From positions 1 through 34,610 of IMG/VR virus record IMGVR_UViG_3300032401_000040: 34,610 nt of DNA. One strand, given 5' to 3'. Positions 4,785 through 33,110 of this stretch are shown here, piece by piece. The notes below the pieces were generated by a model. It was not told the origin of the DNA. It did no database searches and was given only the letters and a program-made list of their open reading frames with translations. Origin of the DNA: a virus. The first letter of the stretch is position 1; every line of letters begins with the position of its first letter. A program made the translations under genes and the position numbers.

Positions 4785-4790
4785 TAATCT
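4785..4790 (+). promoter_or_regulatory. -10 element TAATCT, leaderless position
   Basis: TAATCT, preceded by an extended-10 TGC, begins 12 bases before the ATG at 4797. No purine-rich ribosome-binding site lies between. The distance places the transcription start at or beside the A of the ATG. Two TTTGAGA copies lie just upstream (4743-4749 and 4755-4761) and may be part of the control region. Confidence 0.55.
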
Positions 4791-4796
4791 CAGATC

Positions 4797-5720
4797 ATGA
4801 GTTCAGTCAACAAATCGGGTGAGGCCGCGGAGAGATCTGCGGCCTCAGTCGTATTCACCATCTACTGTCATATCCACACCGAATCCGGGCGTCGTTACGT
4901 CGGACAGACGAAGAAGACGATGCTGAAGCGCTGGAACCAGCACGTCTACACCGCAAACGGAAAGATGAAAGGATGGTCACACTTTGCGAACGCCATTCGC
5001 GTTTACGGTAAAGACGCATTCTCGCACGAGGTTCTCGAGGTTTGCCATGACCTCGATTCCGCGAACGAGGCGGAGAAGCGATGGGTAGCCCATTTCGACA
5101 CGACGAACCCGGAGAAGGGCTTCAACTTCAAGTCTGGTGGTGATCACCAGCCGCACCCCGTTCGCAATCCGTGGGACCGCCCCGGCTTCCGTGAGAAGCA
5201 CCCGGTCACCATCGGGGCCTGCCACACGCCGGAGGCTCGCGCCAGGTCCAAGGCCGCGCTCAACACTCCGGAGTCCAGGGCCAGGCGATCGGCCGCCGCG
5301 AAGTCCGTGATGGCCGACCCCGCCGTCCAAGAGAGGCGCCGGGCGTTTCAGGACGACCCGGCCTACCGGGAGCGCATCGCCGAGTCTCTCAGGGCCTCCC
5401 TCAGCGATCCTGACGCCAGGGCCCGTCAGTCCGAGGCCGCCCGTCTCGCGAACGCCCGCCCCGAAGTGAAGGAGAGGATCTCCGCCGCGGCGAAGGAGGC
5501 TTTCTCCGACCCCGAAGTGAAGGCCAGGCACTCGGCCGCCGTCCGCGAGGCCCAGAGCCGCCCGGAGCTCCTCGAGAGGCGCCGCGTCTACCGGGCGAGC
5601 CCTGAGACCAGGGCGAAGATCTCCGCCGCGTCCACGGGCAGGAAGCACTCGCCCGAGGCGGTCGCCCGGATGAAGGACCTCTACTGGTCGCGCATCGTCT
5701 CGGCCGTCCTCGCAGCCTAG
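4797..5720 (+). CDS. GIY-YIG homing endonuclease with NUMOD-like tail (copy 1)
   Basis: 307 residues. The N-terminal ~100 residues are a GIY-YIG nuclease: 'IYCHIHTESGRRYVG' (residues 22-36) holds the two signature tyrosine strands, followed by 'RWNQHVY' and 'HFANAIRVYGKDAF', with a probable metal-binding Glu in 'ANEAEKRWV'. The rest is a chain of ~17-20-residue Ala/Arg/Ser-rich helical repeats of the type 'DPEVKARHSAA', ending in a NUMOD3-like motif ('SPETRAKIS...GRKHSPEA'), which in this family binds DNA. It stands alone directly after the sheath gene, and no interrupted host gene is visible, so it is a free-standing (Seg-like) element rather than an intron ORF. The nuclease domain is lower in GC than the repeat tail. 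It is closely related to the gene at 22445. Confidence 0.9.
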   Translation: MSSVNKSGEAAERSAASVVFTIYCHIHTESGRRYVGQTKKTMLKRWNQHVYTANGKMKGWSHFANAIRVYGKDAFSHEVLEVCHDLDSANEAEKRWVAHFDTTNPEKGFNFKSGGDHQPHPVRNPWDRPGFREKHPVTIGACHTPEARARSKAALNTPESRARRSAAAKSVMADPAVQERRRAFQDDPAYRERIAESLRASLSDPDARARQSEAARLANARPEVKERISAAAKEAFSDPEVKARHSAAVREAQSRPELLERRRVYRASPETRAKISAASTGRKHSPEAVARMKDLYWSRIVSAVLAA

Positions 5721-5723
5721 GTG

Positions 5724-5729
5724 TACCCT
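5724..5729 (+). promoter_or_regulatory. -10 element TACCCT, leaderless position
   Basis: TACCCT begins 11 bases before the ATG at 5735, with no Shine-Dalgarno sequence between, matching the TANNNT arrangement seen at other gene starts in the window. Confidence 0.5.
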
Positions 5730-5734
5730 CCGGC

Positions 5735-5914
5735 ATGGGAAGCATCATGTCGGCGATCAGGGACGACATCGAGGACTACGAGGCGCTGTGCAGGCGCTAC
5801 GGCGAGGAAGTCCGTTACTCGCACGGGAGCGCCGACTGCTACGGGAAGCACGCGGACTCGCTCAAGGAGCGCGCCCGCAGGGACGAGCCGGCCCGCGAGG
5901 TTACGGAGTCGTAG
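5735..5914 (+). CDS. Small hypothetical protein, 59 residues
   Basis: This short frame runs from ATG 5735 to TAG 5912-5914. The product is highly charged and probably helical, beginning 'MGSIMSAIRDDIEDYEALC' and ending 'EPAREVTES'; it has two cysteines and no recognisable domain. Support comes from the TACCCT element 11 bases upstream, strong GC3 bias in this frame, and tight packing between neighbours on the same strand. Its stop codon TAG is also the first three bases of the TAGGGT element of the next gene. A second possible ATG is at 5747. Function unknown. Confidence 0.6.
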   Translation: MGSIMSAIRDDIEDYEALCRRYGEEVRYSHGSADCYGKHADSLKERARRDEPAREVTES

Positions 5915-5917
5915 GGT
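5912..5917 (+). promoter_or_regulatory. -10 element TAGGGT overlapping a stop codon
   Basis: TAGGGT begins exactly 12 bases before the ATG at 5924. Its first three bases are the stop codon of the upstream 59-residue gene. There is no ribosome-binding site between it and the ATG. Confidence 0.55.
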
Positions 5918-5923
5918 TCCGTC

Positions 5924-6415
5924 ATGCCATTTCCTCAGGTAGGTGACGTCTGGAGGCGGTCCTCCCCGCCCGGGGCCGACGACCTGGAGCATTCCCTCCA
6001 GGACCCGCGATTCCTGAAGTTCTGCCAGCCCGGCGCCATCCTCAGCGTGACCGGGGTCTGGAAGTCGAGCCCCTCGGACCGGGCCGTCTGGGTCGACGCC
6101 CTGTGCGGCGGCGACACCGTCGTCTTCCAGAGAGAAGCCTTCGTCCGCGCCTACGGGATGGCCGTCCCGTCGAAGGCCCCGTCTTCCTCCGTCGTCCACG
6201 ACGTTCGGAACTGGTCTCCGGGGGAGATGCTGGACGACATTCCGCTTCTGAAGTGCCCCTCTTGCGGCAAGACGGCCTTCGACATCGGGCCGCCTTTGGA
6301 CTATCTTGGCCGCGCCGGAACCGGCAGGACGTATGTTCATGTCGTGTCCGGCCTTACCGATCGGAGCGGGACGCCGATCGTTTCGTGCGAGGGAATGACG
6401 GCCGTCAAGCCGTAA
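5924..6415 (+). CDS. Hypothetical protein with a CxxC zinc-knuckle
   Basis: 163 residues, start ATG 5924 set by the TAGGGT element 12 bases upstream. The N-terminal two-thirds has 'VGDVWRR' and alternating strand-like segments suggesting a small beta fold. Near residue 109 lies a 'CPSCGK' knuckle; a single further Cys near the C-terminus ('VSCEG') does not complete an obvious four-Cys site, so zinc binding is possible but unproven. No family recognised. It lies in the accessory island between sheath and tube, followed by a separately promoted gene. Confidence 0.7.
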   Translation: MPFPQVGDVWRRSSPPGADDLEHSLQDPRFLKFCQPGAILSVTGVWKSSPSDRAVWVDALCGGDTVVFQREAFVRAYGMAVPSKAPSSSVVHDVRNWSPGEMLDDIPLLKCPSCGKTAFDIGPPLDYLGRAGTGRTYVHVVSGLTDRSGTPIVSCEGMTAVKP

Positions 6416-6433
6416 GTCCTGTCCCGCCCGGCG

Positions 6434-6439
6434 TAAGCT
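6434..6439 (+). promoter_or_regulatory. -10 element TAAGCT, leaderless position
   Basis: TAAGCT (in the context GGCGTAAGCTG) begins 11 bases before the GTG at 6445, with no Shine-Dalgarno sequence. The same octamer context, CCGGCGTAAGCTG, recurs at 7894-7906, supporting a real promoter motif. Confidence 0.55.
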
Positions 6440-6444
6440 GTCAC

Positions 6445-7881
6445 GTGCCCGGACTTGAAGCCAGACGCTGGATCATCGCGTACGCCGCCACGGTGCTCGC
6501 CCAGTCCGAGCTGCCGATGACCCTGGACGAGATCTTCCCCGCGTACGGCGGCCCGCGCGGGCCCCGGACGATCGGGAGGAAGCTCCAGAGGTCCGTCGTG
6601 GACGCGATGATGAAGAAGGGCTACGTCTCGTCGCGCCGGATCTGCGGCGTGGAGATGTACGAGAAATCGAACTCCGGCGGTCTGTGGAGCGTGGCGATTC
6701 TCGAGGACGAGATCGGGGAGGTCGCGGACACCTTCGGAACAAGCGAGGCCGAGATGAGGAACAGAAGGTACGCCGCCAAGGAGGCCGAGAGGAAGGGCAA
6801 GATGGACGTCTCGGTCGGGGTGCTGAAGAAGCTCCTGTCCGTCCCGGAGCCCCAGTCGAGATCCTCCCTGTTCAAGGCCAGGCGGGGCGACAAGTTCGAG
6901 GAGAGGGCCGCATGGACCCCCACGTGGCAGGTTCCGCTCATGGACGCGCTCGTGAAGGTCGGCGCCGTGCGGGCCTCCGGGAGCCCCGTCGTGTACGAGG
7001 CGGCCGACAGAGAGCTCCTCCGGAGAATCTACGAGTGGAAGGAGAAGGGCCCCAACTGCCTCATGACGCTCCTCTTCCCTGACTCCCCGTGCGACATGGA
7101 CCACGCCCTCCCGGAGTCGGCCCCCCTGGACACCCCCGAGGTCCAGCTCGAGATAGAGCCCGTCCGGGACCCGGAGCCCGACGGCGATCCTGAGAGCGCG
7201 GAGGCCGAGGCCGAGGCTCCGCCGGATCAGACCCCCGCCTCCGCCCCGGAGGCCGGCGCCCAGTCCGCGGTCCTCTCCGTCCTGGACTCCATCACCGGGA
7301 TGCTGGGCGCGCAGGCAAAGTCGCACTCCATGGTCCTCAGCACGCTCCTCGAACTGGCCAAGACCGTCAAGGGCCTGTCGGACATCGTGGACGAGCTCAA
7401 GGACGGGGTCGCCTCCGCCGAGGAGGCCGCCATAGAGATGCAGAGGAAGCACGAGGCGGCCGGGCTCGAGACTTCCGCCCTTGGCCACCAGCTGAACTCC
7501 GTAAGGAAGAGGCTCGCGGATCTGGACAAGTCTGCCTCGGCCGAGGCCCTGGCCTCGTCGTCCAGGCATGACTTCGTGAAGAAGGCCGTGTCGGAGCTCG
7601 CGGCCGCGATAGCGTCCTCGCACCACCAGCCCTCCCGTCCTGACACGCCCGTCCTCGAGGCCATTGCGTCGCTCCGCACCGAGGTTGCCTCCCGGACGGC
7701 CCGTCCTCGCACCAGTGCTGCCCTCCTCAAGCGGCTCTCCGACACCGCGGACGACCTTGGCGCCCTCAGGGACCTGGCGCTCGACTCCATGAAGCCGGCC
7801 GTCGAGGCGGATCCCGTCAGCGTTGGCGTCCATCGCGGCATCCACCTGGACCGTTTCCCTCCCCGGGGTGATCCTGCGTAA
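6445..7881 (+). CDS. Winged-helix-like and coiled-coil protein, function unknown
   Basis: 478 residues from GTG 6445. The frame extends upstream to 6103 only as a shadow of the previous gene, and the TAAGCT element fixes the GTG. Residues ~1-75 and ~150-210 are compact helical segments ending in hydrophobic strands ('VDAMMKKGYVSSRRI', 'LMDALVKVGAVRASGS') that resemble winged helices. A Glu/Pro-rich linker follows (about 7130-7260, 'EAEAEAPPDQTP'). The last ~200 residues are heptad-like coiled coil. The design (compact N-terminal domain, acidic Pro linker, coiled coil) recurs in the gene at 9277. No enzyme motif seen. The fold call is an inference. Confidence 0.72.
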   Translation: MPGLEARRWIIAYAATVLAQSELPMTLDEIFPAYGGPRGPRTIGRKLQRSVVDAMMKKGYVSSRRICGVEMYEKSNSGGLWSVAILEDEIGEVADTFGTSEAEMRNRRYAAKEAERKGKMDVSVGVLKKLLSVPEPQSRSSLFKARRGDKFEERAAWTPTWQVPLMDALVKVGAVRASGSPVVYEAADRELLRRIYEWKEKGPNCLMTLLFPDSPCDMDHALPESAPLDTPEVQLEIEPVRDPEPDGDPESAEAEAEAPPDQTPASAPEAGAQSAVLSVLDSITGMLGAQAKSHSMVLSTLLELAKTVKGLSDIVDELKDGVASAEEAAIEMQRKHEAAGLETSALGHQLNSVRKRLADLDKSASAEALASSSRHDFVKKAVSELAAAIASSHHQPSRPDTPVLEAIASLRTEVASRTARPRTSAALLKRLSDTADDLGALRDLALDSMKPAVEADPVSVGVHRGIHLDRFPPRGDPA

Positions 7882-7905
7882 ATTGGATCGTGTCCGGCGT
7901 AAGCT
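7879..7905 (+). promoter_or_regulatory. Two stacked -10 elements, TAAATT and TAAGCT
   Basis: TAAATT (7879-7884) contains the TAA stop of the preceding gene and lies 11 bases before an in-frame GTG at 7890. TAAGCT (7900-7905, same context as at 6431) lies 23 bases before the ATG at 7923, which has its own Shine-Dalgarno sequence GGAG at 7913-7916. The pair could give one leaderless and one leadered product differing by 11 residues. Confidence 0.45.
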
Positions 7906-7922
7906 GCTGTCAGGAGACAGCC

Positions 7923-8390
7923 ATGAAGCTTCGTGAAGCAATCCGCACCATCGTTCGTGAGGTCGTCGGGCAGGACATTCGCCAGGCCGTCCGCGACATC
8001 CTCATGGAGGAGCTCATGGACGCCGGACCCTCCGCGGACCGGGACGACGGCTCGGACGACCCCGAGGAGACCTCGGCCAACGAGCATGCCGAAAGGGCTT
8101 CCGTCAGGCAGAGGGCCGGCAGGAAGGCCGCCGCCACGCGCAAGGCCCGCAAGGAGCAGTCTAGGCTCCCGAAGCCGGCCCGCGACATGGGCCTCGCCGT
8201 CGGACAGACCTGGCGCGGGAAGCCGTACAACAAGAACGTCGCCAAGAGGGTCGTCGAGATCGCGTCGATCGACGATACTGGCGTGGTCCCGCGGATCGTC
8301 TCCGCCGGCACCGACAGGACCGCGGCCAAGCACATGACGTTCGACCATCTCAGGAAGTGCTACGAGATGTCCGGCGGAGTCCTGCGCTGA
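7923..8390 (+). CDS. Small basic protein with N-terminal amphipathic helix and SH3-like C-terminus
   Basis: 155 residues from ATG 7923, chosen because GGAG lies 6 bases upstream; an in-frame GTG at 7890 would add 11 residues and sits at leaderless distance from TAAATT. The N-terminus ('MKLREAIRTIVREVV...') is an amphipathic helix resembling the N-terminus of the next gene product. An acidic stretch and a Lys/Arg-rich stretch follow. The C-terminal ~65 residues ('VGQTWRGKPYNKNVAKRVVE') look like a small beta-barrel of SH3 type, a form seen in many short phage proteins. The stop overlaps the next ATG (TGATG), implying translational coupling. Confidence 0.7.
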   Translation: MKLREAIRTIVREVVGQDIRQAVRDILMEELMDAGPSADRDDGSDDPEETSANEHAERASVRQRAGRKAAATRKARKEQSRLPKPARDMGLAVGQTWRGKPYNKNVAKRVVEIASIDDTGVVPRIVSAGTDRTAAKHMTFDHLRKCYEMSGGVLR

Positions 8391-9280
8391 TGACCCCCGG
8401 CTCTCTCGTCCGCGACATCGTCCTCGACGAGTTCCGCTCCGCCGTCATGGAGGCCGTCCGCGACTTCATGGCCGCGCGCCCTCCTTCGCCCGTCCGACTC
8501 CGTCCGATGCCCCGGTTCTCCTCATACCGTGGGGACTCCAGGGCCAAGAAGGCGGTCCGCCTCAGGGTGTGGGAGGCCGTCCGCGACAGCCTCGGCGAGG
8601 CCCTGTTCGTCGGCGGCCCGCACCTGTTCCTCTGCTCCCGCGAGGGCGGGGACGCGTCCGTGCTCCGCGGCCTCGGCGTCCCCGACGCCTCCATGATCGC
8701 CGTCGACTCTGACCCGAGCGCCGCGGTCCTGTTCTGCGAGTCCTATCCCGGGGTCACCGTCACCGTGTCCGACGTCGGGAACGTCCTCCCCCTCCTCCCC
8801 GCCCCTCTCTCCTCCGCATACCTGGACTTCACCTCCCACGTCTCCCCCGCCACCCTCCAGAGGGTCCTCCTGGCCGCCCGGGCGGTCCGCCCCGGGGGTG
8901 TCGTTGCGTGCACCTTCGCCTCGGGCAGGGAGAGGGGCCGCGCACGCGCCGCCGCCGGCGCTTGCGAGTCTCGCCTCGACGCCGTCGAGTCCTACCTTTC
9001 CGAGAACCTCGGATACCGTCCGGCGGTCATGGCGAGGATGAGCTATATCAGCGAGTCCGAGGAGGGCCGCGGGTCCAACATGTGCGTTCTGGTCTTCCGC
9101 ACCTCCCCCGGCGGCGGTCGCCTCCCTCGGATTTTGCGCGTCCGTGCGTACGACCTTTACCGTGACGTCCAGAGGCACTTGGACAGCCCTTCCCTCGGGC
9201 TTCTCCTGAACTGCGCTGACGCCCAGACGGCCATCATCAGGGACCGCGTCGTCGCGTACCCCCCGGAGCGTAAGTCTTGA
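8390..9280 (+). CDS. SAM-dependent methyltransferase-like protein
   Basis: 296 residues from ATG 8390, which overlaps the upstream stop (TGATG). An amphipathic N-terminal helix ('LVRDIVLDEFRSAVMEAVRD') is followed by a Rossmann-like core: 'LFLCSREGGDASVLRGLG' in the motif I position, 'IAVDSDPSA' with the acidic residues that would contact the SAM ribose, a motif IV-like 'AYLDFTS', and 'RAVRPGGVVACTFA' as the post-motif strand. Motif I lacks the canonical GxGxG, so cofactor binding is uncertain. The substrate is not evident; the C-terminal ~90 residues are unassigned. It could also be an inactive methyltransferase fold. Confidence 0.68.
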   Translation: MTPGSLVRDIVLDEFRSAVMEAVRDFMAARPPSPVRLRPMPRFSSYRGDSRAKKAVRLRVWEAVRDSLGEALFVGGPHLFLCSREGGDASVLRGLGVPDASMIAVDSDPSAAVLFCESYPGVTVTVSDVGNVLPLLPAPLSSAYLDFTSHVSPATLQRVLLAARAVRPGGVVACTFASGRERGRARAAAGACESRLDAVESYLSENLGYRPAVMARMSYISESEEGRGSNMCVLVFRTSPGGGRLPRILRVRAYDLYRDVQRHLDSPSLGLLLNCADAQTAIIRDRVVAYPPERKS

Positions 9281-10194
9281 CCCCCGCCGGGGTACCGATC
9301 TCCATGAAGCCGGTCAGCGAGTCCTGGTGGGAGGATCTCCATGCGGTCGTCCTTGTCGCCCTCTCCTCCCTTGCCAAGGGGGAGCCCATCCGGCTCGACC
9401 ACCTGACCGTCCCCGCCCACGGGTCCTCCAAGGACGTGGAGGCCGCATATCGGCGATTCAAGGAGGACGGGGTTCTTGACGGGGTCGGCCCCTTCCTCGA
9501 CGTCCTCGTCGCAAAGGGCGCCATGGACAGCAGGACTGTCGGCCAGTGGTCCCCGTTCTACAAGGTGAAGAACCGGTTCTTCGTGAGCTCCCTTATGGAA
9601 AAACTCAAGACTCAGGGGCCGTCCGCCGTCGCGGAGTTCATGGGGGCAGTCCTTCCTGCGCCCCTCGAGCCTGAGCTCGAGCCCGAGCCCGACCTGGCCG
9701 TCGGTCCTGGGACGGGAGAGGACGAGCTCGATGTCGCCCCCGAGGTCCCCGTCCGTCCGCGCCGCGTCGACTCTGCCGCGGTCTACGATCTGCTGTCTTT
9801 CATGGTCGAGAGATTCGCCAAGTCCGTGGACCTCCAGGTTCAGATGGCCGAGACCCTCGTGTTCGTGAAGGACGAGGTCGTGGCCATCAGGGAGAGACAG
9901 TCTTCCCTCTCCAAGAGGCTGAAGTCCATGGAGTCCGCGACTGCCGATCCTGCTCCCCCGTCCATCGTCGACAGCTCCGGCATTCGCGAAGAAGTCGCGT
10001 CCCTCTCCTCGAGGCTGGAGTCGGCCGTTTCGTCTGTAAATTCTATCCGGCAGGAGGTAGTCGGGGCTGTGAAGTCCGCAGCGGAGCGCATGGAGTCCGA
10101 CCGCATGTCCAGGATCGCCGAGGCGGCCGGACGTCTTTCGGGAGAGATCTGCGTCCTCCGCGACGCCCTCTCCGAGGAGTCCGAAGATGAATGA
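9277..10194 (+). CDS. Coiled-coil protein with acidic Pro linker, function unknown
   Basis: 305 residues if it starts at TTG 9277, which overlaps the upstream TGA (TTGA); an in-frame ATG at 9304 is the alternative and would make 296. The N-terminal ~120 residues are helical with a winged-helix-like end ('FLDVLVAKGAMDSRTVGQW'). A Glu/Pro linker ('EPELEPEPD', about 9665-9690) leads to ~150 residues of coiled coil ('RERQSSLSKRLKSMES', 'VASLSSRLESAVSSVNSI'). The same three-part layout occurs in the product of 6445, suggesting related roles. Overlap with both neighbours indicates one operon with 8390 and 10187. Confidence 0.7.
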   Translation: MTPAGVPISMKPVSESWWEDLHAVVLVALSSLAKGEPIRLDHLTVPAHGSSKDVEAAYRRFKEDGVLDGVGPFLDVLVAKGAMDSRTVGQWSPFYKVKNRFFVSSLMEKLKTQGPSAVAEFMGAVLPAPLEPELEPEPDLAVGPGTGEDELDVAPEVPVRPRRVDSAAVYDLLSFMVERFAKSVDLQVQMAETLVFVKDEVVAIRERQSSLSKRLKSMESATADPAPPSIVDSSGIREEVASLSSRLESAVSSVNSIRQEVVGAVKSAAERMESDRMSRIAEAAGRLSGEICVLRDALSEESEDE

Positions 10195-11164
10195 GCTCGA
10201 CAAGCTCGTGGCCGCCTACAAGAGCGAGTGCGGCGCCATGAGCGAGAAGCAGAAGGCTGAGTCCGAGAGGAGGATCTGGGCGGTCCACTATTCTTCTCTC
10301 GGCCCGGACGTCCCCAAGGGGGACAGGAGGGAATGGCTCGCTTCCGCTCTCGGCGGGACGTCCGCCGAGTATGAGCACCGCAGCAATCTCATCGGGGCTG
10401 GTGCCTGGGCGGATCCCTTCTGGGGCATGGCGGACTCCGGCGCCTCGCTGTACACCGTCATCCGCCTCTTCAGGGACGCCCGCAAGATCGTTACCTCCGG
10501 GCAGGCCACCCACGAGGACGCCGTCAGGTCCGTGATCGACGGGTACAACTCTCTGGGGTACATGGCGCGTTCCCCGGAAGGGAAGGTCTTCCGGAAGTCC
10601 GGCCCCGGCGGCCGTACCCCTCGTCCTTCTGACCCCCCGTCCGTTCCGGGGCCGTCCGACCGTCCCAAGGACTACAACTTCGACGGATCGTCGTCCCAGA
10701 ACTCCCGGTCGAAGAAGTTTCTCTCCGAGCTCATGTCCCTGGCCGACAGTTATGTCCTTTCTAGCCTCGCCGATCCTGACGCTGACGAGGCCCTCAACCT
10801 TCGGATTGCGAAGGACGACTTCCTAAGCTATGTGCGCGAGGCCGCCGAGGACCTCAGGCGCCGCGTCACCGCCTCCAGGTCGGTCGCCCGGAAGGACGTC
10901 CGGAGGCAGAGGGTCACGCGCGAGCATTTCAGGCATGCGTGCGAGGTCCTGAACCTCCCGTACGTGTACGGGCATGCCGTAGATCTCAGGTTCTGCAAGC
11001 GTACGATGCTCAAGAGAGCAGGCCCGCTGCACCCCGACCGGAACAACGGGTCGCACAGCGCGCAGTCAGAGTATCAGGCTGTGATCGAGTCGTACGCCGT
11101 CCTGGAGAAGTATGCGGAAGGACTGAAGAATGAGAACGGAGACAGAAATCATGAAGGCCGCTAG
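10187..11164 (+). CDS. J-domain (DnaJ-like) co-chaperone protein
   Basis: 325 residues from ATG 10187, overlapping the previous gene by 8 bases. The C-terminal ~70 residues read as a J-domain: a first helix ending in a leucine-rich turn ('FRHACEVLNLP'), a basic second helix ('DLRFCKRTMLKRA'), the HPD triad at residues 282-284 ('LHPDRNNGS') and a third helix with the usual aromatic/Leu pattern ('YQAVIESYAVLEKYAE'). In J-proteins HPD stimulates Hsp70 ATPase; no Hsp70 gene is in the window, so the partner would be the host DnaK or another phage protein. The N-terminal ~110 residues are helical and unassigned, followed by a Ser/Pro/Gly linker. An AAA+ ATPase gene lies three genes downstream. Confidence 0.75.
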   Translation: MNELDKLVAAYKSECGAMSEKQKAESERRIWAVHYSSLGPDVPKGDRREWLASALGGTSAEYEHRSNLIGAGAWADPFWGMADSGASLYTVIRLFRDARKIVTSGQATHEDAVRSVIDGYNSLGYMARSPEGKVFRKSGPGGRTPRPSDPPSVPGPSDRPKDYNFDGSSSQNSRSKKFLSELMSLADSYVLSSLADPDADEALNLRIAKDDFLSYVREAAEDLRRRVTASRSVARKDVRRQRVTREHFRHACEVLNLPYVYGHAVDLRFCKRTMLKRAGPLHPDRNNGSHSAQSEYQAVIESYAVLEKYAEGLKNENGDRNHEGR

Positions 11165-11723
11165 CAAACCGCGCAACACCGAGCCCGCCAGGGGGCGTTC
11201 GCGACCGGCGTCCGCCTCGTTCAGCGACTTCGTCCCCGATCATTCCCTCAACGAGGTGGATCGTGCCGCCCAGTTCTTGGACTGGGCGGCACAGCACATG
11301 CCGATGCGCTTTGTCCCGTACACCTGGATCGCGAAGCATGCGATCATCAGGCCGAGGGTTCCCGGCCCGGACTCGCCCGAGGTCGTCATGATCCGGAAGA
11401 AGATCGGGGCGATCAAACGGTCCCTCTGGGACCGCTATGGCCGGAGGTCCGTCGCGGCCCCCCGCGACCAGGAGCTCGGCATCCGGGCCACCGTCGACGA
11501 CGACGACGTCGCCGGGACCGACTTTCTTCAGAACAAGCGCCGCATTCACAACGGAATCCGGCGCCTCGAGGACACGCGGTCCAAGATTGATCCGGGCCGG
11601 ATGCGCGATCAGGGCCTCAAGGCCATGGTGACCGGCATGGACGCGGTCATGAAGAAGCTCACCCAGCCGGACCTCATGACACGCCTGAAGGAGCTCCCCG
11701 CCCGCAAGGACGAGGACGACTGA
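11151..11723 (+). CDS. Hypothetical protein with winged-helix-like core
   Basis: 190 residues from ATG 11151, preferred because GGAG lies at 11138-11141; an ATG at 11130 in the same frame would add seven residues. After a disordered Arg/Ser/Pro N-terminus, residues ~30-125 form a helical segment ('RAAQFLDWAAQHM', 'IRKKIGAIKRSLWDRYGR') followed by strands and an acidic turn ('LGIRATVDDDDVA'), the order expected of a response-regulator-type winged helix, though without clear DNA-contact residues. The C-terminus is helical and charged. The stop overlaps the next ATG (TGATG). Confidence 0.66.
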   Translation: MKAASKPRNTEPARGRSRPASASFSDFVPDHSLNEVDRAAQFLDWAAQHMPMRFVPYTWIAKHAIIRPRVPGPDSPEVVMIRKKIGAIKRSLWDRYGRRSVAAPRDQELGIRATVDDDDVAGTDFLQNKRRIHNGIRRLEDTRSKIDPGRMRDQGLKAMVTGMDAVMKKLTQPDLMTRLKELPARKDEDD

Positions 11724-11974
11724 TGGGCACCGTCAGCGTCGAGTACCTCCGCGCTCTCCTGAAGTCGTACGATGACGGCGAGACCACCGAGATGTCCGTG
11801 AGCGCAGACGTGTACCGGAAGGTCGTGGAGGACCTCGTCGAGGGCGTCAAGTCCGGGGAACCGTTGGGCTGCTTCAGCTCCGTGTGCAACTCTGGCCCGG
11901 TGCCCCCGAACGAGAAGCTCATGGTGGAGATCGAGTACGGGCCGTTCGAGATATGGGTTCGCCCCGCCCCCTGA
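11723..11974 (+). CDS. Small hypothetical protein, 83 residues
   Basis: ATG 11723 overlaps the upstream stop codon (TGATG), so it is probably translated by coupling. The product begins with a helix ('VSVEYLRALLKSYDDGE') and ends in beta strands ('EKLMVEIEYGPFEIWVRP'), with two cysteines in 'GCFSSVCNSG'. No family recognised. It is the last gene before the separately promoted AAA+ ATPase. Confidence 0.62.
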   Translation: MGTVSVEYLRALLKSYDDGETTEMSVSADVYRKVVEDLVEGVKSGEPLGCFSSVCNSGPVPPNEKLMVEIEYGPFEIWVRPAP

Positions 11975-11998
11975 CACCCCCGTCCTAGCCTCCTTTTG

Positions 11999-12004
11999 TA
12001 TGGT
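11999..12004 (+). promoter_or_regulatory. Extended -10 TGTATGGT, leaderless position
   Basis: TATGGT, preceded by TG of an extended -10, begins exactly 12 bases before ATG 12011, with no ribosome-binding site between. A second candidate, TAGCCT at 11986-11991, lies further upstream. Confidence 0.55.
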
Positions 12005-12010
12005 CCCGGC

Positions 12011-13501
12011 ATGGGCGGACTCATGCGCAGGACGGCGGCCTACCTCGGGAGGCTGAAGGAATCCGAGTACGGGGTCAACGCCGCCATGGGGGGCGTCGTC
12101 AACTACCTGGTCGACTCGTACTTCGCGAAGATCGACGAGAGGAACTCTCGTCGCGTGCCTGAGCGCCGCGTCCCGGCCGATCCCCACGCCCACGTCCGGG
12201 AGCTGTGGCTCGGGTGCGAGCTCCACACTTGCGTCACGCTGAACCGCCAGTATCCGGCCGTGTTCCGCGACCTGAACGCGTGGGCCATCGCCAACATGTT
12301 CGCCGGACCCCTCGCCCAGTACGAGCTCGTCCCGTTCCTCGACTCCTACGAGTTCAAGGAGATGCTCAAGGGCAACTACTCCTACAGGGTCCAGTCCGAG
12401 CAGCTCTCGATCGCCCCGGGCGTCCAGAAGACCCTCCCCGTATTCGGCAACTTCTTCGTCCAGCACCGCGGGACGGGGTCGAGGCTGTTCGTTTCGATCG
12501 ACCTGTGCTATGAGTCCATGGCCTGCGCGGTGTCCGCGATGGTCGCCCCGGGCCAGCAGGCCGCGGCGGAGGCCTTCTTCAGCGACCTTCAGGCCTCGAT
12601 CGCCGCCAACGACATCTACTTCAAGCAGTGCCTGAACTTCGTCCGCGGCAAGCTCGACTTCGCCGCCGTGACGTCCACCTCGTGGTCCTCGGTCGTCCTG
12701 AAGGACCCGATCAAGGAGTCGATCCACCAGAACACGGTCGGCGTCCTCGAGAACATGGACGCGCTCGCCGGCCTCGGGATGTGCCCGAACCAGAACGTCA
12801 TCCTCATTTCGCCGCCCGGGATGGCGAAGACGACGATCTTCCGCGCCATCTCGCACGAGGTCGACGGCCGGGTCACGCGTGTCTGGTGCACAGGCAAGTC
12901 CATCGAGAGCTCCAGGGACGTCACGTCCCTCTTCGAGGCCGCCCGCGGCCTCGCCCCGTGCCTCGTCTTCATCGAGGACATGGACCTGTTCGGCCGCGAC
13001 CGCTCGAGCGGCGTGCTCGGATCCGACCCTCACGTCCTGAACGAGTTCCTCGCGTGCCTCGACGGGGCCCAGGAGAACGCCGGCGTCGTCGTCCTCGCCT
13101 CGACGAACGACATCGCCTCCATGGACGAGGCCCTCGTCAACAGGCCCGGACGCTTTGACGTGAAGATCGAAATCCCGTTCCCGGACGCCCAGGACCGGTC
13201 GGACATGCTCAAGAAGTTCCTGATCCAGTATCACTCGGTCGTTGACTCGAGCGTGTCCCAGGAGACCTGGGAGACCCTCATCAACATGACCGAGGGCCTT
13301 ACGGGGGCCTACGTGAAGGCGCTCGCCAAGTCGGCCGTCATCCGCGCGACCGCCGACGGCTGCGTGTCGGACGACGGCAGGGTCTGCGTCCTGACGGCCG
13401 ACCAGCTGAACGCGTCGGCCGACCAGGTGATGAAGAACTATCAATTGGGTCAGAGGGCTCTCAAGCATCACAAGGTCGATGTTACCTTGAACCATCCCTG
13501 A
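12011..13501 (+). CDS. AAA+ ATPase of the Cdc48/FtsH/BCS1 class
   Basis: 496 residues from ATG 12011. The N-terminal ~240 residues are a unique alpha/beta region. The ATPase module follows: Walker A 'SPPGMAKTT' (residues 267-275), Walker B 'LVFIEDMD' (318-325), a sensor-1 Asn in 'VLASTND', and a second region of homology with two Arg in 'NRPGRFD' (377-383), then a helical lid. Walker A departs from GPPGTGKT: the first Gly is Ser and the Gly before the catalytic Lys is Ala, while Lys273 and Thr274 are kept, and Walker B reads ED rather than DE, as in some BCS1-like AAA proteins. AAA+ proteins of this class accompany contractile injection systems (Afp15/Pvc15), so a role in tail assembly is plausible but inferred. 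Its last 34 bases overlap the antisense HNH gene. Confidence 0.87.
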   Translation: MGGLMRRTAAYLGRLKESEYGVNAAMGGVVNYLVDSYFAKIDERNSRRVPERRVPADPHAHVRELWLGCELHTCVTLNRQYPAVFRDLNAWAIANMFAGPLAQYELVPFLDSYEFKEMLKGNYSYRVQSEQLSIAPGVQKTLPVFGNFFVQHRGTGSRLFVSIDLCYESMACAVSAMVAPGQQAAAEAFFSDLQASIAANDIYFKQCLNFVRGKLDFAAVTSTSWSSVVLKDPIKESIHQNTVGVLENMDALAGLGMCPNQNVILISPPGMAKTTIFRAISHEVDGRVTRVWCTGKSIESSRDVTSLFEAARGLAPCLVFIEDMDLFGRDRSSGVLGSDPHVLNEFLACLDGAQENAGVVVLASTNDIASMDEALVNRPGRFDVKIEIPFPDAQDRSDMLKKFLIQYHSVVDSSVSQETWETLINMTEGLTGAYVKALAKSAVIRATADGCVSDDGRVCVLTADQLNASADQVMKNYQLGQRALKHHKVDVTLNHP

Positions 13502-13911: not shown

Positions 13912-13917
13912 GAAAGA

Positions 13918-13923
13918 ACTTTA
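13918..13923 (-). promoter_or_regulatory. -10 element TAAAGT for the HNH gene, leaderless position
   Basis: On the minus strand TAAAGT occupies positions -12 to -7 relative to the ATG at 13911, exactly the leaderless spacing used by plus-strand genes; no ribosome-binding site is present. Confidence 0.5.
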
Positions 13924-14003
13924 CTGCATTCATGACTACGTCGAGGCCGAGGCGGAAATCCGCATCGGCGGCTGATCGATAGGCCTCCTTTACCAAGATC
14001 AAC

Positions 14004-14010
14004 GAGAGGA
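14004..14010 (+). promoter_or_regulatory. Shine-Dalgarno GAGAGGA
   Basis: GAGAGGA lies 6 bases before ATG 14017 and decides this start. The 105-base gap between the HNH gene and 14017 holds nothing else that I can identify apart from the HNH promoter. Confidence 0.6.
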
Positions 14011-14016
14011 CCTCAC

Positions 14017-14526: not shown

Positions 14527-14531
14527 CCAAC

Positions 14532-14786: not shown

Positions 14787-14792
14787 CCTGCC

Positions 14793-15868: not shown

Positions 15869-15900
15869 TAGGAAACTCCTAAAGGCTTAATGCCTCCTTT
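15869..15900. promoter_or_regulatory. Two small palindromes upstream of the tail tube gene
   Basis: TAGGA-AAC-TCCTA (15869-15881) is followed by AGGC-TTAAT-GCCT (15883-15895) and CCTTTTTT. They lie between the divergent minus-strand HNH-like gene and the tube gene at 15906. No clear TANNNT element at leaderless distance is present for the tube. The palindromes may be an operator, a 5' leader structure or a weak terminator; the sequence does not decide. Confidence 0.35.
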
Positions 15901-16663: not shown

Positions 16664-16673
16664 TGTCCGCCGG

Positions 16674-16679
16674 TAGGGT
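16674..16679 (+). promoter_or_regulatory. -10 element TAGGGT with leader and Shine-Dalgarno
   Basis: TAGGGT lies 39 bases before ATG 16713. Transcription from it would give a leader of about 27 bases containing AAAGG (16699-16703), so this start is leadered, unlike most others here. Confidence 0.45.
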
Positions 16680-23581: not shown

Positions 23582-23600
23582 ACTCGCGCTCTTTTTTGAG

Positions 23601-23606
23601 TACGGT
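23601..23606 (+). promoter_or_regulatory. -10 element TACGGT
   Basis: TACGGT begins 14 bases before ATG 23615, with no ribosome-binding site; near-leaderless. A short ACTC...GAGT inverted repeat with a T-rich loop lies just upstream at about 23582-23601 and could end the endonuclease transcript. Confidence 0.45.
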
Positions 23607-23614
23607 GGAATGAC

Positions 23615-24241: not shown

Positions 24242-24242
24242 T

Positions 24243-28800: not shown

Positions 28801-29794
28801 GTGCGGGATAGGGCGCGCCGACTGGCTTGCCCTCCTCCCCACGGACGTCATCGTGCAGGTCCTGAAGGCCGAGAGCGGCGCGGACGTGAAGCCTCAGAAC
28901 GTGGAGAACGCTTTCGGTGCGAAGATCACGTCCGGAGCGACACCTGGATCGCCAACGAGCCTGTCCTTGGAGAACGACAAGGCCAACAAGGCCATAGCGC
29001 AGATATTTCCGGGCCTGGACGTCCAGACCACCTTCACGGGCCTGGACGCCATAGTCGGGAACGTGACGACCGGCGGGTTCTTCGACGCCCTGACCAAGTA
29101 CCTGCAGAAGCTCGTCGCGACGAACTATGAGGCCAACGCCAGGAGGGAGGGGCGCTCCAACGCCGAGGAGCGTGGGGTCGTGAGCCAGCTCTTCGACGCC
29201 GAGGAGCAGACGAACATCCTCGGGGATGACGGACAGGATCCCCTCTTCGCCCGTGCCGCGTCCGGGGACCCGGCCGCCCTGGACGCCCTCAGGAACCAGG
29301 TGGCGAACTCGAACTTCGGCATGACCGCCGCCGCAGGAAAGAACTTCAAGAAGGCCTGGGACGACGGCAAGGAGAAGCTCCAGCAGACGTTCGAGCACTT
29401 CGGGGCTTCCGGCGGCACCACCGTCTTCGCCGTATCGGCCGGGAACGCCTCCGGATCGGTCGGCGTCTCCGTCGGGACCGTCGGGACGCAGCCCTCGGCG
29501 GAGGCGGCGGCGGCCACGGCGGCGGCGGCCAACGCCACGGCGGTCTCGGCCCTCACTCAGGCCACCACCGGAGTCCCGCCCTCCCAAAGCCCGCAGCCCA
29601 AGCAGGTCCAGCCCCGCAGGCCTTCCCCGAACCTGAGGTCGCTGATAGTGAACCCGTCGTCGCCGGCCGCCCTGAACCAGCCTCTCGTCGACGCGCAGAG
29701 CGCCGCGTTCACCGCGACCATCTCCACCACCCCCGGGCCCGTGGACCCCATCCCGACCTCGAAGCCGAAGGTCAAGAAGCCCGGGACCCCCTAG
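25826..29794 (+). CDS. Large baseplate hub protein
   Basis: 1322 residues, start coupled to the upstream stop. The N-terminal ~500 residues have the hub pattern of gp27/gpD-like proteins: 'YVVLTPDVFVSIQGE', 'GSATINLSVPDTDINDFY', 'YYRVFWGLVSSVSKSW', 'LAISCKDILRWW', and a later 'PMRPELKLGFPIWFPKY' with 'FYVTGISHQFS'. Residues ~700-830 are coiled coil with a Pro/Thr-rich break ('KAPPTPGTPDGT'). The rest is of unclear fold and ends in an Ala/Pro/Ser-rich tail. Typical hub proteins are about 350-600 residues, so this one carries a large extension. It would hold the spike (30217) and the transglycosylase. Its stop codon TAG overlaps that of the convergent minus-strand gene (CTAG). Confidence 0.78.
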   Translation: MRQSAFKGNWVPNKRPYVVLTPDVFVSIQGETSVIGCGECRREININDYMTSVSTEAAVDSAPGSATINLSVPDTDINDFYIDGQLVIIPMMEIEVYAKGYFLIGGFPQYYRVFWGLVSSVSKSWSGGTTTLAISCKDILRWWELTNVTINPAFTESFGGSAGGYQLWQNQFAAMNPSTIIIKLAKESMGDFSITQGSFTSFTPEKGPEGPAIGAYAKDVMAYWQLKFANIWNSLVIYGSSGELYSFTGDGDTVSPVNLSAQMNNQEEKLSGNNQATSVFKIQPNEITPFKQELARAGDVELFQTEAMSKLSIAQACRDQSGWEFFCDPSGDIVFKPPFYNLNVLPNKPISWIQNYEIIDDSVTDSEAEVYTHITSSGNAFGGTMDWGLNDEITTPRTGVIDFHLLRRYGWRRLDYQCEWAGNPKKLFYWLMDYLDRMNAKRQAGSVTIPMRPELKLGFPIWFPKYDSFFYVTGISHQFSVGGQATTTLTLIAKRSKFIAPNNIGFIKKSGNTRDEMVRDYGVPWKNGEPKNKVVDGRRAWNSVQIPTYEIGFPNRLGGTAGLSNEETMGQPVVVRSPKTGKLLGFPNAVMVYRSTIEGTVLSKILEEQGSNKSKAPANQDKGKKDTGPKYNYDYTVTQTFSRLRGDARAKTISSLRAHRYEAGMTNGGAYDYARDEDRVFQEMTLIPTNSISWNKAGEDPNQPSTFDKTVAAGSDKKKAEQQKAAVDAQAAVVKTAKGKVDAQVTAVSNIDKQLTVLLKKLPSVPKTVKKAPPTPGTPDGTSTTTATEPPDIVDKRAELQVAKDKLALLQKDYDEESLALTQTKANQGTVRTLASLNVLVRPVSDDFGFEVIGHNKYGRGAFIDRGKIQLAGDAPGGVINRINVQFAPTGGLLTDPGIVGAQDGSSADFAASFERMQPDDYVTGATFTGSNKSSDIKEFQFTDQNTYTNQINANVGHSLYVEADQTRKSKTLGELKPTIAIGGLDGLDSCSCGIGRADWLALLPTDVIVQVLKAESGADVKPQNVENAFGAKITSGATPGSPTSLSLENDKANKAIAQIFPGLDVQTTFTGLDAIVGNVTTGGFFDALTKYLQKLVATNYEANARREGRSNAEERGVVSQLFDAEEQTNILGDDGQDPLFARAASGDPAALDALRNQVANSNFGMTAAAGKNFKKAWDDGKEKLQQTFEHFGASGGTTVFAVSAGNASGSVGVSVGTVGTQPSAEAAAATAAAANATAVSALTQATTGVPPSQSPQPKQVQPRRPSPNLRSLIVNPSSPAALNQPLVDAQSAAFTATISTTPGPVDPIPTSKPKVKKPGTP

Positions 29795-30183
29795 GCGTCG
29801 CGCGGCGGTTCACCGCCGCGCACGGCCGCGACGAACCTCGGGTCGCACTTTGCCGGGGTGAGCACGTACGTCAGGACCCCCTCGGCCAGCCTGTTGACCG
29901 GCGACACTATGGCGAGTGACTCCGTCGTTCCGGCCGCCGTGCTCACCATGTGCCTGATCCTGACGACCTTGCACGACAGGGAGATGCTGTACTTGCCGTC
30001 CTCCTTGTCCACGACGCAGTCCAGGCTGTTCTGCCTCCCCACGTACCCGATCAGGGCCGGGTCCTTGACCGGGATGTTCAGGGAAACGGTGTGGCCCTCC
30101 TGGATCCAAGGGAGGTCCACGAGCCACCTCGCGCCCTCCACCATCTTTCCCGACATCGCGGCTGCCTGAATGATCAGTGGCAC
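29791..30183 (-). CDS. Small beta-rich protein encoded antisense within the baseplate cluster
   Basis: 130 residues from GTG at 30183 (minus strand), with GAGGAGG about 6 bases upstream. It appears mostly beta ('HTVSLNIPVKDPALIGYVG', 'KYSISLSCKVVRIRHMV') without known motifs. Its stop overlaps that of the hub gene. The start region shares a promoter core with the spike gene: TACGGT on the minus strand (30211-30206) is the near mirror of the spike's TACCGT. Being the only intact non-nuclease gene on the minus strand here, it may be expressed at another time, for example as a regulator or accessory protein. Function unknown. Confidence 0.68.
   Translation of the reverse strand: MPLIIQAAAMSGKMVEGARWLVDLPWIQEGHTVSLNIPVKDPALIGYVGRQNSLDCVVDKEDGKYSISLSCKVVRIRHMVSTAAGTTESLAIVSPVNRLAEGVLTYVLTPAKCDPRFVAAVRGGEPPRDA
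29800..29821. terminator. 9-bp GC hairpin at the convergent gene ends
   Basis: Arm GCGCGGCGG (29800-29808), loop TTCA, and its exact reverse complement (29813-29821). It lies just after the hub stop and inside the last codons of the minus-strand gene. As a terminator it would act on hub transcripts; no T tract is present. Confidence 0.55.
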
Positions 30184-30204
30184 GGTAAGCCTCCTCTACA
30201 TCAG

Positions 30205-30211
30205 TACCGTA
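30205..30211. promoter_or_regulatory. Overlapping divergent -10 elements in TACCGTA
   Basis: On the plus strand TACCGT (30205-30210) begins exactly 12 bases before ATG 30217, the leaderless spacing. On the minus strand the same bases shifted by one read TACGGT (30211-30206), which would give a ~16-base leader carrying GAGGAGG before GTG 30183. One 7-base core may therefore serve both directions. Confidence 0.5.
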
Positions 30212-30216
30212 CAGTC

Positions 30217-32514
30217 ATGGCAGGAGGAAAGACAGGCGGACCCGGCGACCTACCCGAAGTCCCCAAGGGCGGAGTGTCGATGTCGCGCGACATGCGGCAC
30301 CCCGGCGGCCCGAAGCAGGCCTCCTCCTCGGGACGCGAGGCGTTCGCATACCTGCACGCCGGCCACATAGTCCACGTCGACACCGAGACGATGGTCTGCT
30401 CGGTCCGCCTGGACTCGATGCAGAGCGAGAGGCACGACGTCCCGCTCCCCGCCGCGGCCGGGTCCGGCCCGAGGAGCTGGGCGGGCCTCATCCCCGAGAA
30501 GGGTACGAAGGTCCTGATCGGATGGAAGAAGGTCGACGCTTCGGCGCGCAACTTCTCCCCGTACATCGTCGAGTTCCTGACGAGCGGGACGTTCGCGGCG
30601 CGCGAGTACGAGCCGTTCATGTCGATGCCTCCGGAGGACGCGGCCGCGGCCCTGGACCTCCATCCGGAGCTCGCGGACGACCCGCGGTACAACATGGGCG
30701 TCGTCCGGCTCAAGGCCCGGAAGGGGTATCCCGGGGACTTCATCGCCTCCTCGAGCGGCGGGTCGGACTTCATCCTGGACCGGGACGTCCTCCTCACCAA
30801 CCGCGCCGGGAACGAGCTCCGCCTCAGGGACTCCGACCAGACGGCCGTCCTCCAGACCCTCAACGAGTTCACCAGCAACTCCGCAGGATACTACCGCCGC
30901 GGACTGGTTAAGCGCAACGCCTTCAACATCCTCCCGGACCTCTATCCGGTCGAGGACGCCAAGGTGGCGATCGTCAGCCCCGGCGACCCGGCGAACGGGA
31001 AGGATGCGAACGGTGAGCCTTTGGACCGGTCGGCGGCGTACGACGCCCTCCTGAACTTCGGCCTCATCAAGGAGGACGGGTCTGCGAACTTCGAGGAGGG
31101 CGTGTCCCCGTCCGGAAACTCCAAGCTCGTCGATCCGATCTATCCGCCTATCACCACGTCCGACGGCCAGAGGATCTCGTACGTCGTCCACGGCGAGCAC
31201 AGGTTCAGCTTTGCCGACACGCTGTACGCGTACGTCGAGGACAGGACCGAGCTCCGCCACATCTCGGACGGGATCATGGCCGTCACCGAGGAGGGCGACG
31301 GCTTCCAGGTGGACCCGCCTTTCCCGGCCTACGTGGAGGACGTGAAGGGGACCGTCGTCGGGAACGACTTTCACTCCGACGCCGGCCGGCCCTTGTACAG
31401 GCGCGTCCTCGGCATGAAGCTCTTTACGAGCCCCAACCAGAAGATCCCGTCCGACTTCCCGACGCTTGAGGCCGTGGACACGGTCACGAAGCTCGGGATC
31501 ATGGACGCCGTCGGCCTCGCCAGGCTCTTCAGGATCAACTGCCCGCAGCAGGGCAGCTCGAACCAGTTTGCCTTCGGCATCACCAAGGAGGGCAAGGTGA
31601 TGTGCCACATCCCGAAGACCCAGTATGGAGAGCCGGACGAGAAGGGCAAGTCCCTGGAGCTGAACCTCCAGGGCCTGTTCAAGGCCATCATCGGCGCGGA
31701 CGAGAACTCGGGGAACCTGAGCCTCGACATGAGGACGGTCGGCGGCATCAACCTCGACGTCGGGAGGTTCAACGGCGGACCGTACGCCGGGTCCTCCGTC
31801 GTCCTGAACCTCCACGGCGGGGTCAAGCGGATACACAACGGTGATCCGGACACGGGCGTCGCCGACGACGTCACGTACAACGGGTCCGGGAGCGAGATCG
31901 GGACCGGGTCCAAGCTCGTGTCCTGGGGCGGGAACATAATCAACAACGCCGGCGGCGAGAACGCCCAGTCTGGCCAGAAGATCACGATAAACGCCGGGGC
32001 CGGCGGCCTCATCAACACCGTCGCGGGCGACCTCGGGAACTCGGTCCTCGGCAAGACCCAGGAGCAGTACGCTCAGATCGTCACTACGACGTACGCCCTC
32101 GGGAAGGTCCGCACGACCGTCTCCGGCGTGGACTCCCTGACCATGCTCGCCGGGGCCATCACCCGCACGCTCGTGGCCGGCGTCGGCATAGCCGACACCG
32201 TCACGGCCGGGAACCTGATCCAGACCGTCGCTACCGGGAACAACCTGATAAACGTCGGGACTGGGAACCTGGCGGCCACCGTCGGGGCCGGTAGCCTGTC
32301 CCTTACCTGCGGCGCGGGGCCGGTGTCCGTCGTCTCGGCCCTCGCGGCCGCCATCACCTCGGGGGTCCTCATCTCCCTGACCACCCCGATCACGAAGATC
32401 GGCGCGACCGTCCAGGGGTTCGCCGTCGCCGGAATCCCGGGACCCGGCGGCCCCCACCTCGACTATCTGACGGGAATCCCGATCCTCGGGGTTCCGACCG
32501 TGACGATCGGTTAG
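30217..32514 (+). CDS. Baseplate spike-like protein with beta-helical tip
   Basis: 765 residues from ATG 30217; the frame is open further upstream but lies across the antisense gene, and the TACCGT element fixes this start. Residues ~40-130 look like the OB-fold of gp5/gpV/VgrG spikes ('GHIVHVDTETMVCSVRLD', 'WAGLIPEKGTKVLIGWKK'). The middle ~400 residues are less clear. The last ~190 residues are a Gly/Thr/Val repeat ('TVTAGNLIQTVATGNNLINV') typical of triple-stranded beta-helix spike shafts, with a tip-like 'IPGPGGPHLDYLTG' near the end. It would form the trimeric membrane-piercing needle below the hub. No lysozyme domain is inside it; that activity is on the product of 24243. Confidence 0.8.
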   Translation: MAGGKTGGPGDLPEVPKGGVSMSRDMRHPGGPKQASSSGREAFAYLHAGHIVHVDTETMVCSVRLDSMQSERHDVPLPAAAGSGPRSWAGLIPEKGTKVLIGWKKVDASARNFSPYIVEFLTSGTFAAREYEPFMSMPPEDAAAALDLHPELADDPRYNMGVVRLKARKGYPGDFIASSSGGSDFILDRDVLLTNRAGNELRLRDSDQTAVLQTLNEFTSNSAGYYRRGLVKRNAFNILPDLYPVEDAKVAIVSPGDPANGKDANGEPLDRSAAYDALLNFGLIKEDGSANFEEGVSPSGNSKLVDPIYPPITTSDGQRISYVVHGEHRFSFADTLYAYVEDRTELRHISDGIMAVTEEGDGFQVDPPFPAYVEDVKGTVVGNDFHSDAGRPLYRRVLGMKLFTSPNQKIPSDFPTLEAVDTVTKLGIMDAVGLARLFRINCPQQGSSNQFAFGITKEGKVMCHIPKTQYGEPDEKGKSLELNLQGLFKAIIGADENSGNLSLDMRTVGGINLDVGRFNGGPYAGSSVVLNLHGGVKRIHNGDPDTGVADDVTYNGSGSEIGTGSKLVSWGGNIINNAGGENAQSGQKITINAGAGGLINTVAGDLGNSVLGKTQEQYAQIVTTTYALGKVRTTVSGVDSLTMLAGAITRTLVAGVGIADTVTAGNLIQTVATGNNLINVGTGNLAATVGAGSLSLTCGAGPVSVVSALAAAITSGVLISLTTPITKIGATVQGFAVAGIPGPGGPHLDYLTGIPILGVPTVTIG

Positions 32515-32517
32515 CCT
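32512..32517 (+). promoter_or_regulatory. -10 element TAGCCT overlapping the spike stop codon
   Basis: TAGCCT begins 10 bases before ATG 32522; its TAG is the stop codon of the spike gene. No ribosome-binding site is visible. Confidence 0.45.
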
Positions 32518-32521
32518 GGAC

Positions 32522-33100
32522 ATGCCCGTAGACCCCGGAACAACCCTCCCCATATTCCAGGGGATGCTCGCGGCGAACGCCGTCATCGGGCCCGGCAGCG
32601 GCCAGCTCGCCGCAGGGCTGGCCAACGGCCTGTTTCAGTACCTGTCCGCCTCCGTCACCGTGCTCTCGATAGACGCCGGCACTCTCGGGGCCGGAACCGG
32701 TGTCGGGTTCGGCCTCATACTCCCCCCGAGCGTCATCCTCGGCGTCCTGAGCCCGATGATGGCGGGTCACCTTATACTCGGTCCGTTCGCACCCTCGACG
32801 GCGAACGCCATAGCCATGGCCGTGTCCCTCTCCCTCGCCGGAGCTTCGGTCCAGACTGTCAACGCCGGGGTGGGTATAGGGGCTGGGAAGGTCCAGCTCG
32901 TCCCCACCGGCACGGGCGGGGCTGTGTTCGCCGCCGCGATGACCGCCGCGGGCCTCACCGGCCCCATGGCGTCCGCCCTCGGGGACGCCGTCGGGATGTC
33001 GCTGGACACCGTGATCGCCGCCGTGATCGGCGTCGTCGTCATAGCCGGTCCGCCAAACATTCTGCCCGGAGCCGGCACCGGCGTAGGGAAGATCACCTGA
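32522..33100 (+). CDS. Gly/Ala-rich hydrophobic protein downstream of the spike
   Basis: 192 residues, beginning 'MPVDPGTTLPIFQGMLAAN'. The sequence alternates hydrophobic helices ('VILGVLSPMMAGHLILG', 'DTVIAAVIGVVVIAG') with glycine turns such as 'GAGTGVGFG' and 'GVGIGAGKV'. It might be a membrane protein, or a baseplate component buried at the spike. Small Gly-rich proteins next to spike genes include PAAR-type tips, but I see no PAAR or metal-binding histidine motif, so that is not claimed. Function unknown. Confidence 0.7.
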   Translation: MPVDPGTTLPIFQGMLAANAVIGPGSGQLAAGLANGLFQYLSASVTVLSIDAGTLGAGTGVGFGLILPPSVILGVLSPMMAGHLILGPFAPSTANAIAMAVSLSLAGASVQTVNAGVGIGAGKVQLVPTGTGGAVFAAAMTAAGLTGPMASALGDAVGMSLDTVIAAVIGVVVIAGPPNILPGAGTGVGKIT

Positions 33101-33104
33101 GGAG

Positions 33105-33110
33105 TACTGT
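33105..33110 (+). promoter_or_regulatory. -10 element TACTGT, leaderless position
   Basis: TACTGT begins 11 bases before ATG 33116. GAGG (33099-33102) lies too far upstream (13 bases) to be a convincing ribosome-binding site. Confidence 0.5.

Follow-up and report, generated by a model that had tools for sequence, protein, structure and literature searches.

A -10-like element at leaderless spacing, conserved across a clade of uncultured jumbo phages

Upstream of many genes in a clade of uncultured jumbo phages we find the hexamer TANNNT, in its most characteristic form GTANNGT, with its first T 11 or 12 nt before the start codon. We consider this motif, with a probability of about 0.85, to be a sigma70-family -10 element giving rise, clade-wide, to leaderless or near-leaderless mRNAs, which would very probably begin at the start codon itself, devoid of a ribosome-binding leader. 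According to this model, GTANNGT (or the looser TANNNT) would be recognised by the RNA polymerase of the host carrying the housekeeping sigma, transcription would begin on the A of the start codon or no more than about six bases away from it, and the ribosome would have to initiate on a 5'-terminal AUG without Shine-Dalgarno (SD) pairing. This mode of expression would apply to roughly one in six genes of the clade, throughout the genome, beside SD-led operon genes and a further class marked by the motif TARRCYTTTNAT.

The stretch of DNA analysed here (the window) is an IMG/VR virus record of 34,610 bases. It is a piece of a jumbo phage genome: synteny is seen with contigs as long as 436 kb, and on the jumbo contigs that we fetched most window genes, those of 4797-11974 apart, have their orthologues in the corresponding neighbourhood. 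The AAA+ gene 12011-13501 matches 22 IMG/VR contigs, several of them of 240-436 kb, and gene 15906 matches 460, with 71-89% identity in close relatives. Among annotated phages, matches to gene 15906 came from Tunturi_5 (42% identity), an uncultured 485-kb phage and, remotely, gp180 of Bacillus phage G (26%), encoded close to the tail sheath gene of that phage; the product of gene 15906 (15906-16604) is probably a tail-tube-like virion protein. Megablast of positions 4700-14000 against annotated phages gave no match, nor did a search of the window against Rfam. The adjoining genes 23615-24241 and 24243-25826 have a domain in common (residues ~360-510 of the second), as a result of which tblastn chains the two and mimics an insertion; an apparent intron in the 24243 gene of three relatives (L003-L005; 487 extra bases) was discarded as an artefact of this chaining.

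Table 1. Candidate promoter elements of the window and RpoD-like sigma genes of jumbo relatives
Feature	Record	Positions	Strand	First T	Distance to start (nt)	Context
TAATCT	window	4785..4790	+	4785	12	GIY-YIG homing endonuclease gene 4797-5720
TACCCT	window	5724..5729	+	5724	11	small ORF 5735-5914
TAGGGT (GTANNGT form)	window	5912..5917	+	5912	12	gene 5924-6415
TAAGCT	window	6434..6439	+	6434	11	gene 6445-7881 (GTG start)
TAGCCTCCTTTT	window	11986..11997	+			upstream of 12011; kept in most orthologues
TATGGT (GTANNGT form)	window	11999..12004	+	11999	12	AAA+ ATPase gene 12011-13501
TAAAGT (GTANNGT form)	window	13918..13923	-	13923	12	HNH endonuclease gene 13468-13911 (minus)
TAGGCCTCCTTT	window	13980..13991	+			upstream of 14017, then SD GAGAGGA; similar in nearly all orthologues
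TAAAGGCTTAAT	window	15880..15891	+			upstream of tail-tube-like gene 15906-16604
GTAGGGT	window	16673..16679	+		~39	gene 16713
TAAGCCTCCTCT	window	30186..30197	+			upstream of gene 30217
GTACCGT	window	30204..30210	+	30205	12	gene 30217-32514
GTACGGT	window	30206..30212	-		28	gene 29791-30183 (minus), with SD GAGGAGG following the element
TAGCCT (rejected)	window	32512..32517	+	32512	10	gene 32522
TACTGT (GTANNGT form)	window	33105..33110	+	33105	11	gene 33116-end
RpoD-like sigma gene	L206	1051-2253
RpoD-like sigma gene	L207	1081-2214
RpoD-like sigma gene	L208	970-2160

The initial annotation had listed nine TANNNT hexamers 10 to 12 nt before starts of the window, and all nine are where it had placed them (Table 1). 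Thus 9 of 28 curated starts carry TANNNT at -10 to -12, compared with 6 of the 1565 other ATG or GTG codons of the window (binomial P ~1e-15 for nine sites and ~1e-11 for seven); this null, drawn from the window's own non-start codons, is stricter than the base-composition estimate given earlier. Across the window TANNNT is under-represented relative to shuffles (155 vs 191.8). The form GTANNGT occurs at -11/-12 of 5 of the 28 starts, compared with 0 of the 1565 remaining codons, and the pattern GTANNGTN(5,6)ATG, which needs no gene calls, was counted 5 times against 0 for its reversed form. The lack of an SD sequence, also claimed earlier, is true at functional spacing: the SD-like letters of 5735, 5924 and 33116 stand 14 nt or more before the ATG, ahead of where the transcript is predicted to begin. 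Two of the nine hexamers, those at 5912 and 32512, overlap an upstream TAG stop. A TTGACA-like -35 hexamer 15-19 nt upstream was not found at the nine sites, where the best candidates reach 4 of 6 matches, at two sites; the best -35-like hexamer among them is TTGCCG, 17 nt upstream of the 4785 element. A sigma70 -35/-10 scan of 4700-14100 returned 2 sites (0.7 expected), neither of which precedes a gene considered here.

Conservation of the individual sites is uneven, and this counts against our best explanation. At one end, all 7 orthologues of gene 33116 (40-52% amino acid identity) have TANNNT at -11/-12; the element of 30217 is found at -11/-12 in 3 of 7 relatives and farther out in 3 more; and that of 12011 is kept by a minority of orthologues, at -12 in G002, G003 and L011 and at -11 in L023, being missing from most others. 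For gene 6445, the exact offset is lost in two remote homologues (23-28% identity), and no homologues of ORF 5735-5914 were found outside the same species. Homing endonuclease genes frequently have an element of their own. This is so for the GIY-YIG gene 4797, whose element is at -12 also in L010 (62% amino acid identity) and whose GIY-YIG homologues have TANNNT at -11/-12 in 9 of 16 cases, and for the HNH gene ending at 13911, whose orthologue in G002 (61% identity) has TACAGT at -11. The window holds a second GIY-YIG gene, 22445-23581, a paralogue of 4797-5720 with ~69% DNA identity over 200 bases; only 4797-5720 is preceded by the leaderless element. The orthologues of 16713 keep GTANNGT, the distance of which to the ATG varies from -11/-12 in several, through intermediate values in others, to about 40 nt in the window. 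The leaderless status of 5924 is ambiguous despite a perfect GTANNGT, because the TA comes from the TAG stop of the upstream ORF. The hexamer at 32512, which also overlaps a TAG stop, fails altogether: it is not kept in orthologues of other species and, given this lack of conservation and the absence of any clade excess at -10, is probably due to chance. A start at 7890 with TAAATT at -11 was likewise dropped, in favour of 7923 with the SD AGGAGA. Finally, the sequence GTACCGTAC at 30204-30212 could possibly act as a single bidirectional promoter of 9 bp, from which 30217 would be expressed leaderless and the minus-strand gene beginning at 30183 with an SD.

For the clade statistics, genes were called by codon usage score alone, blind to upstream signals. 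In the window this caller shifts the starts of 4797, 30217 and 32522 a few codons inward, and the homologues of these three genes align from or near the curated start. The genome-scale enrichment check that had been proposed, run on seven relatives, gave a sharp TANNNT peak at -11 and -12 in each, for example 45 sites (2.0 expected) in G011, 60 (9.7) in G003, 34 (2.7) in G002 and 26 (0.9) in G010, and the leaderless-type element stands before about one gene in six (~15%). The letters preferred in the clade are tGTAnngT, and no -35 column is visible in the logos. Among 845 pooled genes preceded by a gap of 20 nt or more, 75 had GTANNGT at -11/-12, where its density in coding sequence predicts 0.26; the motif was never found at -7 to -10, as would be expected if the start codon must lie inside the transcript, and a tail falls off from 13 to 21. 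Summed over 15 subclade records, GTANNGTN(5,6)ATG was counted 369 times against 163 for the reversed control, and in 15 more distant records it stayed near the control level, with the exception of G026. This distant relative (the record of L161) has 51 matches against 12 controls, many of the form GTATGGTGAGG/GGGG..ATG; often containing GGTGAGG or GGTGGGG, these may represent SD sequences and not promoters of leaderless genes. GTANNGT is nearly confined to the subclade with at least 60% identity in gene 15906 (25/395 genes, vs 2/672 below this value), within which genome GC ranges from 0.36 to 0.67. The leaderless state is shared by reciprocal-best orthologues, with an odds ratio of 36 for G002-G003 (p = 2e-7), and with p = 4e-4 for G006-G010 and p = 2e-4 for G005-G011. 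In G011 (L028-L041) some 15-25 genes share two words at fixed positions, CGTACC around -26 and CGGAGGTGAC around -14, which suggests a repeated, SD-led promoter cassette.

The occurrence of SD sequences depends on the distance of the motif from the start. An SD is present in 5% of genes with GTANNGT at -11/-12, compared with 37% of genes without the motif; with the motif at 13-18 it is found in 1 of 30 genes, at 19 and 21 in 8 of 9, and at 22-60 in 56%. Per genome, SD is likewise scarce in leaderless-type genes (3% vs 40% in G003, 3/41 in G002, 7/53 in G011 and 0/27 in G009). Being rare at -11/-12 and frequent with the motif 22-60 nt upstream, the SD pattern suggests that the motif sets the 5' end: if the mRNA start is fixed about 12 nt downstream of the motif, an SD becomes possible only where the motif is far enough upstream. 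Both the promoter role of the motif and the exact 5' end are inferred from sequence, as is the leaderless state itself.

Not all promoted genes are of this kind. A motif search in 611 promoted, non-leaderless upstream regions yielded a second motif, TARRCYTTTNAT, which precedes the start by about 29-32 nt; in the window it stands about 25-37 nt upstream of starts, is often followed by an SD, and is conserved in relatives. Genes of this class and of the leaderless class are nearly mutually exclusive, and as both are spread over the genomes we assign neither to early or late expression. Before 12011, 14017, 15906 and 30217 the second motif is the best-conserved element. The initial annotation is supported in its proposal of -10-type elements at leaderless spacing, and these are enriched in relatives, depleted of SD and conserved in orthologues; its further statement, that TANNNT serves almost all promoted structural genes, has to be given up, in view of the second motif before these four genes and of the ~15% leaderless fraction in relatives.

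Several other accounts of the motif were weighed against the -10 reading. Were it a translation signal within a 5' leader, with transcripts beginning farther upstream, its tight anchoring to the start codon would be accounted for; this is nevertheless improbable, as the motif also occurs at longer distances, where SD returns, its distance from 16713 differs among relatives, and its letters and spacing are those of a -10 element. It is more improbable still that starts were picked beside TANNNT and that the real ones lie elsewhere. The blind caller did choose later codons for three of the genes, but its clade statistics still peak at -11/-12, the GTANNGTN(5,6)ATG count is independent of gene calls, and homologues align from or near residue 1. 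Both accounts are disfavoured by the SD pattern, by the hard edge at -11 and by the variable distance before 16713. Chance, aided by stop codons that supply the TA, fits 32512 and possibly 5912, yet as an explanation of the site set as a whole it is already refuted and its probability is close to negligible: with stop-overlapping sites removed, 29 of 34 remain in G002, 55 of 60 in G003, 33 of 34 in G009 and 38 of 45 in G011.

As to what reads the element, our preferred, albeit unproven, candidate is the host sigma-A; recognition by the host sigma alone is uncertain, given that a -35 element is essentially absent. A phage multisubunit RNA polymerase of the phiKZ/AR9 type (PF04998) was found in none of 14 records, some of which are incomplete. 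Alternatively, the leaderless element might be real but recognised by a sigma that the phage itself encodes, in which case the genes would form a phage regulon and the signals would not be borrowed from the host; we regard this as rather unlikely. One to three sigma70-family genes occur in each of 7 of 11 records, and the phage sigma proteins of ~380-400 amino acids are RpoD-like, with regions 2-4 (Table 1), shorter sigma-like proteins being present as well; the RpoD-like proteins of some records also count against our best explanation, and the near-confinement of GTANNGT to one subclade of such wide GC range points the same way. On the other side, G002, G010 and G011 give strong signals with no sigma region 2 detected (their records may be incomplete), and TA...T is compatible with an ordinary sigma-A. 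In E. coli sigma70, Q437 and T440 contact the -12 T. At the positions aligned with these residues the G003 sigma (the L207 gene of Table 1) has H and K, which hints that this phage sigma serves another promoter class, perhaps the second one. A bolder and more doubtful proposal is that the subclade has fixed GTANNGT as its own -10 consensus, to be recognised by a holoenzyme that the phage encodes or modifies, and that this would constitute a conserved leaderless regulon of ~15% of genes, working in hosts of very different GC, which the phage could switch on by biasing the ribosome in favour of leaderless initiation.

The actinobacterial marker WhiB was absent from 14 records, an absence with which actinobacterial hosts are compatible, and searches for phage S21 and IF3 yielded no IF3 and no confirmed S21 gene. 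A host contig scan gave three short matches (41-47% identity) in metagenome bins of Actinomycetota, Thermodesulfovibrionales and Altiarchaeales, uninformative as to the host; in these bins GTANNGTN(5,6)ATG and its reversed form numbered 38/23, 53/81 and 67/98, respectively. A Granulicella plasmid, taken as a stand-in for an Acidobacteriota host, gave 3 vs 1.3, too few sites. By analogy with other organisms, translation of the leaderless-type genes may depend on 70S ribosomes.

Leaderless phage mRNAs were previously known from a few phages such as Thermus phage phiYS40, and the present pattern is conserved and genome-wide in uncultured jumbo phages. From DNA alone, the consensus allows transcript starts to be predicted with an error of one or two bases, so that 5' ends become testable; it also corrects the annotation of start codons, gives a clue to the missing hosts, and opens the question of whether the genes of a giant phage fall into two translation classes, one SD-led and the other leaderless.

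The leaderless kind of gene is itself well known. TANNNT about 12 bp before starts, with no SD, is an established leaderless signature of Actinobacteria and Deinococcus-Thermus (Zheng 2011, PMC3160421), leaderless genes have been reported for Acidobacteria too (PMC3160421), and in Deinococcus radiodurans TANNNT acts experimentally as a -10 element (PMC12340547). The elements described here share this position and lack of SD; the earlier examples are cellular genes, whereas the present set is phage-borne and has a G before TA and another before the final T. In the open-access literature we found no earlier report of a leaderless pattern in jumbo or huge phages, so that, as far as we could find, the clade-wide use and the GTANNGT consensus are new. 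Bacillus phage G (Donellivirus), which has the remote 15906 homologue, showed 2 TANNNT sites against 6.9 expected, and with the same pipeline phage G, T4 and phiC31 gave no clear TANNNT excess. Among cultured phages the closest in gene 15906 is Tunturiibacter phage Tunturi_5, with 308.7 kb and an Acidobacteriota host; it has two annotated sigma factors and a weak leaderless signal (GTANNNT 9 vs 0.7), but GTANNGT stands at -11/-12 in just 1 of its 288 genes, which are mostly SD-led (57%). A close parallel in kind is phiYS40, a large phage described as having leaderless mRNAs, such as are predicted here from sequence, and in whose infection IF2 is raised and IF3 lowered (PMC3594737); as a positive control its TANNNT peak was recovered (17 vs 5.0 expected). 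P23-45, whose middle and late expression uses extended -10 promoters (PMC7403470), gave, over the 50 kb that were scanned, just 3 sites where 1.0 would be expected. Both are unrelated phages of a thermophile and lack the GTANNGT consensus, whereas in the clade described here the element occurs all along jumbo-phage contigs that measure 69-393 kb.
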